Shown piece by piece: positions 50,642-55,673 of a stretch of DNA of 64,000 nucleotides. The notes beneath the pieces are model-generated. The model worked only from the letters and a program-made list of their open reading frames with translations. It ran no database searches and was not told where the DNA came from. Positions within the stretch are counted from its first letter, which is position 1. Every line of letters starts with the position of its first letter. This DNA comes from Gluconobacter sphaericus NBRC 12467. GTDB taxonomy: Bacteria; Pseudomonadota; Alphaproteobacteria; Acetobacterales; Acetobacteraceae. The stretch is taken from assembly GCF_006539125.1 (NCBI RefSeq), contig NZ_BJMK01000001.1:124001-188000 (forward strand), read 5' to 3'. The position numbers and the translations under genes are program-made.

Positions 50642-51385
50642 TCAGACGGCCGCGGCTGCCGCAGGAACGCTGTTTCTGGACGTGGCGTCTGTCGTGACGG
50701 GGATTTCTGCGGTGTCGTCTTCACGCAGGATGTAACCGCGTCCCCAGACGGTCGCGATCAGGTTTCCGGCGCCGACATTCTGCAGTTTACGACGTAGCTT
50801 GCAGATGAAGACGTCAATGATCTTCATTTCCGGCTCGTCAATGCCGCCATAGAGGTGGTTGAGAAATGCGTCCTTGGTCAGGACCGAGCCTTTGCGGATG
50901 ACCAGTAGTTCCAGAATGGCATATTCCTTGCCCGTCAGGTGCAGCGGAGCGCCTTCGACCGTGACGTTTTTGCCATTCAGATCCAGTTCCAGATTGCCGA
51001 CGCGAAGCCTCGGCTCAGCAAAGCCACGGGAGCGCCGCATGACGGCCTGCAGGCGGGCGACCAGTTCGCCTGCGTCGTAAGGCTTGGTCATATAGTCGTC
51101 CGCGCCCATGGAAAAGGCCCGGATTTTCGCTTGGGGACGCAGCAGGGCGGACAGGACAAGGATGGGCGTCGTGATACGCGCGGCCCTAGCGCGGCGGATG
51201 ACTTCGTAGCCTTCAAGGTCGTTCAGCATCAGTTCGAGCACCACAACATCATAGTCGTAGTGGCGAAGCATTTCGATGGCCTCTTCGCCAGACGGCGTAT
51301 GGTCCACGGTGAAAGACGCGGTCCGCAGGATCTGGGATAGCGTGGCGGCGGCTGACCGATCGCTGTCGACAAGAAGGATACGCAT
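50642..51385 (-). CDS. ctrA: CtrA-type response regulator with Glu at the phosphoacceptor position
   Basis: OmpR-class DNA-binding response regulator of 247 residues, closest to the alphaproteobacterial cell-cycle regulator CtrA. The DNA-binding domain keeps long CtrA blocks: LHLTGKEYAILELL, FLNHLYGGIDEPEMKIIDVF, CKLRRKL and TVWGRGYILRE. In the receiver domain the acidic pocket is Asp7-Ser8-Asp9 and the Lys of DDYMTKPY is kept. The segment YDVVVLELMLND places Glu at residue 51, where Caulobacter CtrA has the phosphorylated Asp51; the codon is GAA at 51233-51235. The protein may therefore be constitutively active-like or not controlled by phosphorylation. The ATG at 51385 follows GGGAG. It is divergent from fliI. 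Confidence 0.92.
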   Translation of the reverse strand: MRILLVDSDRSAAATLSQILRTASFTVDHTPSGEEAIEMLRHYDYDVVVLELMLNDLEGYEVIRRARAARITTPILVLSALLRPQAKIRAFSMGADDYMTKPYDAGELVARLQAVMRRSRGFAEPRLRVGNLELDLNGKNVTVEGAPLHLTGKEYAILELLVIRKGSVLTKDAFLNHLYGGIDEPEMKIIDVFICKLRRKLQNVGAGNLIATVWGRGYILREDDTAEIPVTTDATSRNSVPAAAAAV

Positions 51386-51498
51386 GTTCTCAACTCCCGG
51401 CTTGGTGAAATAATGGTTACTACTCAAGGTTGTGTATGTCGATGAACATGGATCAAAAATCGTAAAATTGTCATTATTTTTCCCGTTATGGGGGAATG

Positions 51499-51513
51499 TT
51501 AGGGTTCTCTTAA
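51499..51513. promoter_or_regulatory. Near-consensus CtrA-binding box
   Basis: TTAG-N7-TTAA, one base from the CtrA consensus TTAA-N7-TTAA, in the 190-base divergent region between ctrA and fliI, 63 bases before the chosen fliI start. It could serve fliI activation or ctrA autoregulation. Confidence 0.5.
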
Positions 51514-51575
51514 GGGTATGGTTGTAGAGTTTGAGGATCGGAACAACCTGCGAAAAACGCTCAGAAACTGCCACT

Positions 51576-52934
51576 ATGGTCGACTACGACAGACTGCTTG
51601 AAAGGCTTTCGAACCTCACCTGCGACTGGGTTCTAGGAAGCGTTAAAGACGTTATCGGTCTCTGCCTGACTGTTATTGGACTCGAAGGCTTCATTGCGAT
51701 TGGAGACCGAGTCGCGGTGAAAGCGCGTGATGGGCGGATTGTACAATCAGAGGTTGTGGGATTTCAGGGTGATGTCGCGCGCCTCATGTCCTTCGGGTCT
51801 CTGGACGGAATTGGTCCGGGCTGTGAGGCTAGGATTCCGCTGAACCGCCATGATGACGGCCTTGGCGTCAACGAAGGCTGGCTGGGTCGTGTGCTGGATC
51901 CGCTGGGACAGCCGATCGACGGGAAGGGGCCTTTATTTCCATCGTTTGAGCGGCAACCGGTCCAGTGTCCTCCGCCCAATGCCGCAAGCCGAGCACGGCT
52001 TGGCGAGCGTATTGATCTCGGGGTTCGAGCGCTTGATACTTTCGCGACGTGCCGGCGCGGGCAGAGGCTCGGGCTTTTCGCGGGGTCGGGTGTCGGGAAA
52101 TCCACATTGTTGTCCATGCTGGCAAGGGGGGCGGACTGTGATGTCGCCGTGATCTCGCTGGTGGGTGAGCGTGGGCGTGAGGTGCGGGAATTCCTCGAGG
52201 ATGATCTCGGGCCGGAAGGGTTGGCGCGGAGCGTGCTGGTGATCGCGACTTCGGATTCTCCGCCACTGATGCGCCGCGAAGCCGCCCTGTCCGCCATGGC
52301 CATCGCGGAATATTTTCGAAACCAGGGCAAATCGGTCCTGCTGTTGATGGATAGCGTGACGCGCTTCTGTATGGCACTGCGGGAAATCGGTCTGTCGGCC
52401 GGAGAGCCACCTGCGACGCGGGGTTATCCGCCTTCGGTTTTTGCAGAGCTGCCTCGTCTTCTGGAGAGGGCAGGACCGGGTTATGCCGATCAGGGCATGA
52501 TCACGGCGCTTTTCACGGTCCTTGTGGAAGGGGATGACCAGAATGAGCCGGTTGCGGATGCCGTGCGTGGCATTCTGGACGGGCATGTCATTCTTGACCG
52601 CAAAATCGGCGAGCAGGGACGTTATCCTGCCGTTGATGTTCTGCGCTCTCTGTCGCGTGCGGTTCCGGGATGTAATTCGCCTGAGGAAAACGCTCTGACG
52701 CAACGCGCGCGGGTCGTGATGGCGACCTATCAGCGGATGGCGGACATGATCCGGCTGGGAGCGTACAAGCCCGGAACGGATCGTGAGGTGGATGAAGCCA
52801 TCGCCCTGATACCGAAGCTGAACGAGTTCCTGTCTCAGGGGCGGAACGAACGGACTACGCGCGCCGAGGCCTTTGAACAGCTGGCGCAGATCATGCAGAT
52901 GCCGCTGAAAAATCTGCCCCTGAATAAATTGTAA
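51576..52934 (+). CDS. fliI: Flagellum-specific ATPase FliI
   Basis: ATPase that energises export of flagellar proteins through the type III apparatus. The 452 residues have Walker A GSGVGKST at 170-177, the SLVGERGREVREF block and the DSVTRFCMALREIGL / GEPPATRGYPPSVFAELPRLLERAG segments, which set FliI apart from F1 beta. The ATG at 51576 is preferred over open codons upstream that overlap the promoter region. It is followed by fliJ at 11 bases. No other flagellar genes are in the window. Confidence 0.94.
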   Translation: MVDYDRLLERLSNLTCDWVLGSVKDVIGLCLTVIGLEGFIAIGDRVAVKARDGRIVQSEVVGFQGDVARLMSFGSLDGIGPGCEARIPLNRHDDGLGVNEGWLGRVLDPLGQPIDGKGPLFPSFERQPVQCPPPNAASRARLGERIDLGVRALDTFATCRRGQRLGLFAGSGVGKSTLLSMLARGADCDVAVISLVGERGREVREFLEDDLGPEGLARSVLVIATSDSPPLMRREAALSAMAIAEYFRNQGKSVLLLMDSVTRFCMALREIGLSAGEPPATRGYPPSVFAELPRLLERAGPGYADQGMITALFTVLVEGDDQNEPVADAVRGILDGHVILDRKIGEQGRYPAVDVLRSLSRAVPGCNSPEENALTQRARVVMATYQRMADMIRLGAYKPGTDREVDEAIALIPKLNEFLSQGRNERTTRAEAFEQLAQIMQMPLKNLPLNKL

Positions 52935-52945
52935 AGGACCTCACA

Positions 52946-53371
52946 ATGGAACCCTCACCTCTCGAGACACTGATTGCCCTGCGGGAGCAGGAACTTGATC
53001 TTGTAGAACGCAGCTTTGCAGAGGCCGTAGCGCGGGAAGTGGCTGCGGAAGAAAAACTGACTGTGGCGCAGGCGGAGATCTTGAACGAACAGCGGATCGC
53101 ATCCAGCCCTACGGCGGATGACGGCGCAGTGGAGGCATTCAGCCGGTGGCTTCCCGTGGGGCGGCAGGTGGTCCTGGAAGCGAGGGAGCGCTGTCGGGAA
53201 GCGGCGATGGATCGCGAGGCTGTACGCTCAGCCCTGATCGCTGCCCGAGCAGCGATGGAGGCCGTCAAGACCTTGTGGGAAGAGCAGAAGGAAGAAGAGC
53301 GGCAGACTGACCTTAGAAAGGAGCAGAACGTCTTGGATGAACTAGCTGTCCGTCAGTTCGGCAGGTCGTGA
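52946..53371 (+). CDS. fliJ: FliJ-like flagellar export chaperone
   Basis: A 141-residue, almost wholly helical protein rich in Glu, Arg, Ala and Gln (coiled coil about 5-60 and 75-130). Sequence identity to FliJ is low by nature, so the call rests on length, coiled-coil character and the position directly behind fliI. FliJ binds FliI and the export gate. The ATG at 52946 follows AAAGGACC. Its last 19 bases overlap the convergent gene. Confidence 0.75.
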   Translation: MEPSPLETLIALREQELDLVERSFAEAVAREVAAEEKLTVAQAEILNEQRIASSPTADDGAVEAFSRWLPVGRQVVLEARERCREAAMDREAVRSALIAARAAMEAVKTLWEEQKEEERQTDLRKEQNVLDELAVRQFGRS

Positions 53372-53784
53372 GAGGAGGCATGCCCGCGCAAGGCCGCCTC
53401 GATCTGGGTAGCAGTGCCAATCAGGGCGCAGGCGACCGGATGGGTGCTGTCGCGGACGAAGGTCAGGACGAGGTCGGAATCGCTGGGAAAGAGGTCGCTT
53501 TGCAGCGTGATGACCGGTGTCATTTCGCCGTTACGGGATGCCCCTTCAGCCGCATGTGAGAGAAGGCGTGCAACCGCTTTTTCCAAGGCGGGAAGAAGTA
53601 TGGTGTGAGGGGCATCATGATGTGCTGCATGGGTCCCAATCAGCTCGTCCCAGCCGCTACGGGTTACGAAAGCGGGGATGCCGTCAGGGGGCGTGTCGCG
53701 CTCGGCGCGCAGAAGGGCGCCGGACTGAGCCATGCCGAGGATATCCAGGGCAGGAAGAATAGTTGGGTCGAGTTTGATGGGCAT
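53353..53784 (-). CDS. Hypothetical protein
   Basis: I do not recognise the family. The 143-residue product has no signal peptide or membrane helix. It looks like a mixed alpha/beta soluble protein (LDPTILPALDILGMAQSGALL at the start; DLVLTFVRDSTHPVACALI late). It overlaps the end of fliJ by 19 bases in convergent orientation. Its closeness to fliI-fliJ might point to a motility-linked role, but nothing else supports that. Confidence 0.6.
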   Translation of the reverse strand: MPIKLDPTILPALDILGMAQSGALLRAERDTPPDGIPAFVTRSGWDELIGTHAAHHDAPHTILLPALEKAVARLLSHAAEGASRNGEMTPVITLQSDLFPSDSDLVLTFVRDSTHPVACALIGTATQIEAALRGHASSHDLPN

Positions 53785-53850: not shown

Positions 53851-54405
53851 TTAGTGCGGCGGGTTGCCCATGGCCTGCATCAGGGCCGTAACCTGCTCGG
53901 GCTGGGCTTTGAAGAGGGCGACATTGGACGGGTTGGGGCTGGGCATTCCTGTCGGAAGCTGTCCATTGCTGGCGGCCAGAGTCATGCCGAATGTGGTCAT
54001 GCCCATCACAAAGCTCTCGGGTGTGAAACCGTGGCTTTGCAGGACGGGTGTCAGTCCCGGAACCTGACTGATCTGCCGGATCGTTTCTGAAAGACCCGTG
54101 CCATGAGAGTTGGGAGGCTGAATATTGCGGGCCTGAAGTTCAGCGATCGTTGCTGCAGCGCGGGTCATGAAATCAGGCGGCAGCGGATAATGCATGGCCC
54201 GCTCGGTATCTGCGCGGACCTGAGGAGGGATCTGTTGGGTCTGCTGCGGCGTGCCCTGAAGGGGGGGGCTTCCGTCAATCTGCGTCTGACTCTGAGCACC
54301 GCCCTGATAGGCAGAGGGCGGGTAGGACTGTGCCTGTGCGGTCAGTGGCAGTATCGCAGCGGAAACGAGGAGCGCGGAGAGCCCTGTCATGCGGGGAAAT
54401 ATCAT
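53851..54405 (-). CDS. Exported hypothetical protein
   Basis: A 184-residue exported protein: signal peptide to about residue 24 (TAQA before QSYPP), a Gln/Pro-rich low-complexity part (about 25-65), then a helical domain (about 75-180) with PLPPDFMTRAAATIAELQA, GFTPESFVMGMTTFGMTLAA and a C-terminal QVTALMQAMGNPPH. No family is recognised. The start at 54405 (ATG) overlaps the end of the aminopeptidase gene by four bases, so the two are probably cotranscribed. Confidence 0.7.
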   Translation of the reverse strand: MIFPRMTGLSALLVSAAILPLTAQAQSYPPSAYQGGAQSQTQIDGSPPLQGTPQQTQQIPPQVRADTERAMHYPLPPDFMTRAAATIAELQARNIQPPNSHGTGLSETIRQISQVPGLTPVLQSHGFTPESFVMGMTTFGMTLAASNGQLPTGMPSPNPSNVALFKAQPEQVTALMQAMGNPPH

Positions 54406-55673
54406 GCCTGCACCCATTCGCCAGCGCGCATCAGAGGTACGCGGTTGCCATTCTTGAGACCATCGAGGTCGATTTTGTCCGAACCGATCATCCAGTCAAT
54501 GTGGATAAGAGAGGCATTGACGCCTCGTTCCAGCAGTTCTTCCGGCGTCAGGCCTTCGATATCGACCATGCATTTCGTATAGGCCTGGCCAAGAGCGATA
54601 TGGCTGGACGCGTTTTCGTCGAACAGCGTGTTGCGATACAGGATTTTACTGGCCGAGATGGGCGAGGAGTGCGGTACGAGGGCCACTTCACCAATCCGGG
54701 CTGCGCCCTCATCGGTGCTGAGGATTCGCTTGAGCACGTCTTCGCCCTGGCTGGCTGTCGCTTCGACGATCCGCCCGTTTTCAAAGCGCACAGCGATGTT
54801 GTCGATCAGCGTGCCCTGATGGAACAGCGGCTTGGTGCTGCTGACGCGCCCGTCCACTTTGCTGCGATGGGGCGTCGTGAAGATTTCTTCTGTCGGGATA
54901 TTCGGATTGCAGACAATACCATTCCCCGACTTTTCCGAGCCGCCGGCCCAAAGATGACCATCAGCGAGTCCGACCATCAGGTCGGTGCCGGGGCCGCTGA
55001 AATGCAGGGCGTCAAAGCGGCTGTCATTCATGTATTTTGCCCGGGCATGCAGACGGGCATTATGGGCTTTCCACTCGGCGACCGGGTCGGCCACATCGAC
55101 ACGGGACGCCTTGAAGATTCCGTCCCACAGGGCAGTGAGGGCGTCGTCGGCCGGAAGCTCCGGGAAGACCTGTGCGGCCCAGGCCGGGGTGGCGCAAGCG
55201 ACGATGTTCCAGTTCACGGCGAACTGCGTGATGATTTCCATTGCCGGGCGGTTGGCTTTGGAGTTGGCGCGGTTGGCCCGGGAAATGCGCTCGGGATCCT
55301 GGCCCTTCAGAAGGGTCGGGTTGGCACCCGTGATGGCCATGCGGGCTGCACCTTCACGGAAGGCGCGTGCCATGCCGTCAGCCAGCCATGTCGGGGCAAC
55401 GTCAAAGGCGTCGTCAGGAGCGTGAATGAAGCGGGCGAGCGTGGTCTCGTCATCCGCGTACAGCGTCGTTACGAGAGATGCGCCGGCCTTGTAGGCGTGT
55501 TCTGTTACGCGGCGGACCAGCGGGGCGGCGTCCAGTGGGGCGGTAATGAGCAGTTGCTGGCCGGGCGTAATGTTCAGGCCAACGCGGACGGCAACCTCGC
55601 CCAGGCGGTCGAGCAGCTGTTCGTGCGAAAAGGAGGAAGAAGCGGACACGTTGGACTCTTTCGCAGTGATCAT
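54402..55673 (-). CDS. M29-family metalloaminopeptidase
   Basis: Cytoplasmic aminopeptidase of the AmpS/PepS/aminopeptidase T family, 423 residues. Family blocks are all present: PTEEIFTTPHRSKVDG (metal Glu), the GEVALVPHSSPIS segment, LFDENASSHIALGQAY (His and metal ligands) and HIDWMIGS near the C-terminus. M29 enzymes use two divalent metals and remove N-terminal residues, often with broad specificity. I chose the ATG at 55673; a GTG at 55649 would match the family N-terminus as well. The frame stays open upstream across the divergent gene, which is a shadow. Confidence 0.92.
   Translation of the reverse strand: MITAKESNVSASSSFSHEQLLDRLGEVAVRVGLNITPGQQLLITAPLDAAPLVRRVTEHAYKAGASLVTTLYADDETTLARFIHAPDDAFDVAPTWLADGMARAFREGAARMAITGANPTLLKGQDPERISRANRANSKANRPAMEIITQFAVNWNIVACATPAWAAQVFPELPADDALTALWDGIFKASRVDVADPVAEWKAHNARLHARAKYMNDSRFDALHFSGPGTDLMVGLADGHLWAGGSEKSGNGIVCNPNIPTEEIFTTPHRSKVDGRVSSTKPLFHQGTLIDNIAVRFENGRIVEATASQGEDVLKRILSTDEGAARIGEVALVPHSSPISASKILYRNTLFDENASSHIALGQAYTKCMVDIEGLTPEELLERGVNASLIHIDWMIGSDKIDLDGLKNGNRVPLMRAGEWVQA

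Follow-up and report, generated by a model that had tools for sequence, protein, structure and literature searches.

A natural Glu51 form of CtrA in Gluconobacter and related Acetobacteraceae in which ChpT is not detected

CtrA is the standard example of a phosphorylation-controlled switch in the alphaproteobacterial cell cycle, and in Caulobacter it is phosphorylated on Asp51 by the CckA-ChpT relay. The locus considered here lies in a 64-kb stretch of Gluconobacter sphaericus DNA (the window) and encodes a CtrA with glutamate in place of that aspartate, raising the question of how the protein might act once its phosphoacceptor is gone. A group that keeps CtrA without the relay is a natural experiment on which CtrA functions need the switch and what the unswitched protein does, and also on whether a glutamate at the phosphoacceptor position can imitate phosphate in nature as well as in engineered strains. 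The gene and its relevant positions are the following.

50642..51385, minus strand: ctrA ortholog of 247 amino acids, with an ATG start, a receiver and a winged-helix DNA-binding domain
51362..51364, minus strand: codon 8, AGC (Ser), replacing an Asp of the acidic pocket
51233..51235, minus strand: codon 51, GAA (Glu), replacing the phosphoacceptor Asp
51083..51085, minus strand: codon 101, the conserved Lys of the receiver
50720..51013, minus strand: DNA-binding half, residues 125-222, close to the consensus of Asp51 relatives

Translation of the minus-strand open reading frame at 50642-51385 gives YDVVVLELMLND, in which Pfam places the receiver (PF00072) at residues 3-112 and the winged-helix output domain (PF00486) at residues 146-220. 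The top NCBIfam match is NF045991 at 325.6 bits, with the next family at 160.8 bits; this score falls short of the model's curated cut-off of 350 bits, and the model's name, RespRegCtrARhodob, suggests that it describes a single order, so the formal CtrA label is a limited one. We call the gene the ctrA ortholog on the strength of this best and specific match and of its being the single CtrA-like copy found. The protein resembles Caulobacter CtrA in domain layout, DNA-binding half and Lys101, and differs from it in Glu51, Ser8, a C-terminus that reads ...AAAAAV, and the undetected ChpT and CckA orthologs. We take the numbering of Glu51 and Lys101 to follow Caulobacter CtrA, and position 8 to be, by CheY/PhoB numbering, the metal-site Asp of receivers. 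The closest named loci, from Gluconobacter sp. P1C6_b and G. oxydans NBRC 14819, are 98% identical. The original prediction, made from the sequence by itself, had described the GAA codon, an Asp-Ser-Asp pocket, a retained lysine and nearly unchanged DNA-binding blocks, and the translated frame bears this out (D-S-D at residues 7-9, K101). The receiver fold is predicted to be intact, with AlphaFold2 block means of pLDDT at 90-96 over residues 1-110 (mean 82.8; pTM 0.53). Lacking Asp51, the protein is not a canonical phospho-CtrA; with its phosphotransfer residues replaced (Glu51, Ser8), it qualifies by its residues as a pseudo-receiver in the sense given in an excerpt of PMC12632262.

The genome is a draft of 3.06 Mb in 97 contigs, 99.92% complete, and among its receiver-type matches we found no second CtrA. 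Apart from ctrA itself, the 15 such matches are at most 37% identical to it, and the seven of these other 14 that re-aligned at an E-value of 1e-20 all carry Asp at position 51. In ten further Gluconobacter loci (L016-L025) codon 51 reads GAA in nine and GAG in one, and codon 8 reads AGC or AGT, both Ser; since they agree, Glu51 is not a sequencing error, and the natural D51E form that had been proposed is confirmed, a GAC or GAT codon being seen in none of them. A fragmented draft of 97 contigs could conceivably hide a canonical Asp51 CtrA elsewhere or carry an assembly error in this codon, but the completeness of the genome, the low identity of its other receivers, the agreement of the ten loci and the presence of Glu51 in 35 of 178 genomes of the family make this extremely improbable.

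Are the enzymes that would phosphorylate this protein present? We searched 200 genomes of the family for ChpT with Pfam PF10090 and with a profile built on 20 ChpT sequences from Acetobacteraceae; the scores of the latter are bimodal, 119 of the 200 genomes reaching at least 88 bits and cross-hits to kinases at most 42 bits. In the genome of the window no ChpT was found by PF10090 (six of six first-look candidates scored) or by the family profile (15 of 18 scored). For CckA, the NCBIfam models were rejected, as no genome of the 200 reaches the 1000-bit cut-off of NF046026, and a family profile was therefore built; its scores are not cleanly separated below about 450 bits, and the threshold was set by eye over a background of about 425 bits. 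Twenty-six CckA candidates from the 30 top loci form one group (best partner at 50-96% identity and 423-1,054 bits), and against this group the hybrid kinases of the window's genome reach 28-40% identity and no more than 254 bits. Its best homolog on the CckA profile (E 6.8e-105) stands among generic hybrid kinases, and neither the family comparison nor the profile detected a CckA ortholog, with six of 39 candidates scored. Across the family, at least 450 bits on this profile is attained by none of the 35 Glu51 genomes and by 83 of the 131 Asp51 genomes. Given Glu51 and the undetected phosphorylating proteins, CtrA probably works here without that switch; phosphorylation by CckA-ChpT in Gluconobacter is very unlikely, as had been suspected when the locus was first read. 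A DivK or CpdR reading of two small receivers of the same genome (L012, L014) was dropped, since they adjoin genes that we take to be CheA-like and CheB-like, which points to CheY.

Brilli et al. 2010 (PMC2877005) describe the relay of their Rhodospirillales cluster as degenerate: they did not find chpT and state that cckA is there, whereas our searches of the window's genome detected no CckA ortholog. Tomasch et al. 2021 (PMC8116508) report that 27-36% of Rhodospirillales genomes have chpT, cckA and divL, and cite CtrA as non-essential in the members of the order that were studied. The scarcity of ChpT in this order is thus already published.

Glu51 reaches well beyond this genome, being found throughout a large clade and recurring elsewhere. 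Within the 200 family genomes, 21 have no CtrA match at 1e-40 and the fragment of G086 lacks residue 51, leaving 178 that were read, one copy per genome, further copies being left out; the second copy of G059 was included in the tree and excluded from the tables. Residue 51 is Asp in 131 and something else in 47 (Glu 35, Arg 6, Ala 3, and Gly, His and Ser one each). The named loci with Glu51 come from what we take to be the acetic acid bacteria, namely Gluconobacter (ten), Neokomagataea, Tanticharoenia, Brytella, Acetobacter musti, Acidomonas, Asaia (three), Bombella mellum, B. favorum and the Acetobacteraceae isolates ESL0709 and B3987. Ala51 occurs in Bombella sp. ESL0385, B. dulcis, B. saccharophila and Parasaccharibacter apium (L044, L053, L056 and L057), the other Bombella having Glu51, and L053 reads as two overlapping pieces in a frameshift-like manner. 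Asp51 is found in the remaining Acetobacteraceae, in Rhodospirillales MAGs and in more distant regulators, with the exception of Ser in an Alphaproteobacteria MAG (L052); two named loci, L054 and L055, end before the residue. Seven Acetobacteraceae genomes (L171, L172 and L175-L179) form one clade of their own, with a CtrA-like protein of about 40% identity that has Arg or Ser at position 51 and no Lys101; ChpT was not detected in them, and the receiver has decayed much further.

A class-wide sample of 144 genomes, requested at 90% completeness, gave 100 that matched CtrA at 1e-55 and 101 copies that were read; the window's genome is among the 100 matches and not among the 101 copies, and two Glu51 genomes of the family (G040 and G122) are in the sample yet below the match limit. 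Asp51 is present in 99 of the 101 copies and Glu51 in two, from genomes of 1.1 Mb (G272, L461) and 1.2 Mb (G273, L429) that belong to two different other families, have lost Asp8 (to Asn and Gln) and yield no match to ChpT at a cut-off of 0.001. All 86 copies in class-sample genomes with a ChpT match below 1e-6 have Asp51, and 13 Asp51 copies are in genomes with a weak match or none. In the open-licence literature, searched by titles and abstract openings, we found no description of a natural Glu51 in CtrA. The kind of change, from response regulator to pseudo-receiver, is known and the regulator concerned is unusual; clade-wide Glu51, together with the undetected ChpT and CckA orthologs and the lost pocket Asp at position 8, goes beyond what a single sequence could tell and is more general than the original prediction could see.

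In the family, residue 51 and ChpT are associated. ChpT is found in 109 of the 131 Asp51 genomes, and 46 of the 47 non-Asp51 genomes lack it (Glu 34, Arg 6, Ala 3, and Gly, His and Ser one each). The sole non-Asp51 genome with ChpT is G133, 88% complete, which has Glu51 and an intact pocket. Its locus (L190) has Asp51 sisters and the ChpT is a true one; the state could be an initial step of the change or come from a mixed assembly. Only six of the 22 ChpT-less Asp51 genomes are under 90% complete, and the persistence of Asp51 without a detected ChpT in these 22 means that it can outlast ChpT. The pocket Asp8 is kept in 106 of 110 genomes with ChpT versus 11 of 68 without; Lys stands at position 101 in 108 of the former, and Lys or Arg in 55 of the latter. 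Fisher's test on the two-by-two table of residue 51 and ChpT gives p = 1.6e-24, a value that does not measure repeated co-change because most Glu51 rows without ChpT belong to one clade, and for the same reason the independent-pairs test is without power: on supported branches six pairs differ at residue 51, with ChpT differing in a mean of 1.1 and in 0.0 the opposite way, and seven pairs differ at Asp8, with 2.7 in the same direction and 1.1 in the opposite one. In several ChpT-bearing relatives (L242, L234, L264 and others) chpT lies about 6-7 kb from ctrA, so a single deletion could have removed it in a forebear of the clade that now lacks ChpT.

A tree of 179 CtrA copies, built with the columns around positions 8 and 51 removed, requires a minimum of 16 changes for residue 51, nine for Asp/Glu, 12 for ChpT and 12 for Asp8. 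One clade of 40 (support 81) holds most of the Glu51 cases, the others being g81 (two genomes), G133 and G148. Asp51 occurs inside the ChpT-less clade in G046, G126, G060, G184, G030 and G013, and Ala51 in G066 and G032; Asp51 inside the Glu51 clade is either a reversal or a retention. Glu51 accompanies an intact Glu-Asp-Asp pocket in G009 and in A. musti (L029), which suggests that in the Glu51 clade the glutamate may have come before the decay of the pocket, although the placement of G009 in the tree has poor support (12). In other ChpT-less lineages such as g56, where a Glu-Gly-Asp or Glu-Gly-Asn pocket stands with Asp51, the residues indicate that the pocket was lost first. The family thus holds intermediates (Asp51 without ChpT, Glu51 with an intact pocket, Ala51 and Arg51), and the order of steps is directly testable.

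In the clade of 40, 37 members have an acidic residue at position 51 and 35 a basic one at position 101, and position 8 takes seven different residues within 34 of the 40 rows. The six rows left out of the site counts (G040, G122, G173, G013, G169 and G066) are divergent, five having no Lys or Arg at 101, and their position 51 is Glu in three and Asp, His and Ala in one each; the 34 rows were picked partly on Lys/Arg101, so that a count of 34 basic residues in 34 is partly by construction and the 35 of 40 is used instead. Over these 34 rows the receiver averages 0.53 identity and the DNA-binding part 0.72, versus 0.73 and 0.79 over 92 Asp51 genomes with ChpT. In Gluconobacter CtrA is under purifying selection: dN/dS is 0.037 in its receiver and 0.026 in its DNA-binding part (averaged by the Nei-Gojobori method over 54 and 53 pairs, rough at a dS of about 1). 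These patterns bear on neutral decay, by which the relay was lost, Asp51 drifted, Glu is merely the commonest replacement, and any phosphate-free action is unrelated to residue 51. The less conserved receiver of the clade agrees with such drift, as does the occurrence of both Asp and Glu within the genus g60 and of Ala, Arg, Ser, Gly and His elsewhere. We claim no preference for Glu beyond ordinary exchangeability, a rough estimate from LG rates having spoken against one. However, drift sits poorly with a position 51 that stays acidic in 37 of 40 members while position 8 varies over seven residues, and with the low dN/dS of the Gluconobacter receiver, and we judge it somewhat unlikely.

The reading that we favour, and hold to be probable, is that Gluconobacter CtrA is a pseudo-receiver that works unphosphorylated and is controlled through its abundance. 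The CckA-ChpT relay would have been lost in the acetic acid bacteria, and the receiver would have given up the chemistry of phosphorylation as Asp51 became Glu and the pocket Asp8 became Ser, with the DNA-binding half kept. CtrA would then be competent for DNA binding as synthesized, the acidic residue 51 facing the basic residue 101 possibly keeping the unphosphorylated receiver in a functional dimer state. Its output would be set by how much of it is made and not by phosphorylation, perhaps with self-control in Gluconobacter through a box upstream of ctrA, and its likely job would be the flagellar genes and perhaps others.

The Agrobacterium protein Rem, an OmpR-type flagellar regulator and a separate paralog beside CtrA, offers a different model; in Gluconobacter, by comparison, the pseudo-receiver is CtrA itself. 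An excerpt of PMC12632262 describes Rem as a response regulator lacking the phosphorylation residues and inhibited by MirA, a known mode of control for a pseudo-receiver regulator. Gluconobacter CtrA could likewise be switched by a partner protein or ligand, and so be regulated but not by phosphate, to which the strong purifying selection on its receiver would lend support; we consider this quite improbable.

If CtrA is used without phosphorylation, as we favour, does Glu51 stand in for the phosphate? Excerpts of PMC12186491 and PMC6363796 call D51E alleles of CtrA in Caulobacter and Rhodobacter capsulatus phosphomimetic, and list a Caulobacter strain in which ctrA is replaced by ctrA.D51E; the excerpt of PMC12733265 mentions CtrA for Caulobacter only. 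The substitution in Gluconobacter is identical, but natural, and comes with the loss of the metal-site residue and with an undetected relay. According to part of PMC12632262, common replacements in pseudo-receivers are Glu for the D, Asn in the second position of the pocket and Arg for the Lys, and it depends on the case whether the Glu drives activity. That Glu51 mimics phosphate is plausible, and constitutive activity by way of Glu51 would be our best guess from the residues. Asp and Ala at position 51 inside the ChpT-less clade go against a strict phosphomimetic role, and ChpT-less genomes outside these cases carry Arg, Ser, Gly or His there. What stands of the original interpretation is the natural Glu51, the sole copy found and the lack of any sign of CckA-ChpT; its always-active protein stays at the strength just given, and the remade cell-cycle circuit that it foresaw is conjectural. 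We would suggest only tentatively, and at less than an even chance, that CtrA repeatedly became a constitutively active pseudo-receiver as the phosphorelay vanished, Asp51 turning into Glu with or before the loss of the metal-site Asp, in six alphaproteobacterial lines; by our own reading of the tree and the class sample these are the acetic acid bacteria, g81, G133 (with ChpT retained), G148 and the two reduced genomes of other families.

Caulobacter CtrA ends in Ala-Ala. The same end is present in 67 of 108 Asp51 CtrAs from genomes with ChpT, in three of 34 Glu51 CtrAs from genomes without it and in two of 39 in the Glu51 clade; the class sample has it in six of 29, so this ending does not characterize CtrA in general. 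According to an excerpt of PMC12186491, which lists ctrA.D51E.delta3-omega among its Caulobacter constructs, S phase is delayed in Caulobacter only if both proteolysis and dephosphorylation are disrupted. With Glu51 in place and Ala-Ala mostly gone in the clade, nature would, on the tentative reading above, come near to the phosphomimetic-and-stabilized combination of that construct. If Gluconobacter CtrA is active and stable, it could not gate replication as it does in Caulobacter.

The neighbourhood of the gene includes flagellar genes.

51531..52934, plus strand: fliI, flagellar export ATPase, divergent neighbour of ctrA; its start is uncertain, with an in-frame ATG at 51576
52946..53371, plus strand: fliJ
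51499..51513, minus strand: candidate CtrA-like box TTAA-N7-CTAA between ctrA and fliI, one mismatch from TTAA-N7-TTAA

The ctrA gene stands head to head with fliI and fliJ, and alongside are genes for an FtsH-type protease and a phosphoglucomutase-family protein, the latter presumably glmM. Two minus-strand open reading frames 3' of fliJ (53353-53784 and 53851-54417) have no Pfam match. In the fetched loci, the lengths of which differ, fliI is present in 12 of 34 Glu51 genomes without ChpT versus 67 of 109 Asp51 genomes with it, so flagellar genes do not always accompany ctrA, and these counts lend weak support to a clade-wide flagellar role.

Exact boxes of the form TTAA-N7-TTAA are absent from the 64-kb window, where about one box with a single mismatch (1.08) is expected by chance, and the genome as a whole is not enriched for the exact form (13 sites versus 25 for the reversed pattern). 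In the 34 ChpT-less Glu51 genomes, upstream boxes occur in 16 versus 15 for the reversed control. More widely they occur in 34 of 66 genomes without ChpT and 14 of 109 with it, against shuffle expectations of 15.1 and 7.5 and reversed controls of 20 and 23, a comparison confounded by AT content. The case for the ctrA-fliI box rests on its first TTAA, kept in all 11 Gluconobacter within a stretch that is otherwise poorly conserved, and a self-control site upstream of ctrA is plausible in Gluconobacter only. Two other blocks upstream of ctrA (window positions 51386-51500) are strongly conserved in the 11 Gluconobacter, AATAATGA..A..TTTACG.TTTT and ATCGACA...ACAAC....GTAGTAACCA, and are perhaps promoter or leader elements.
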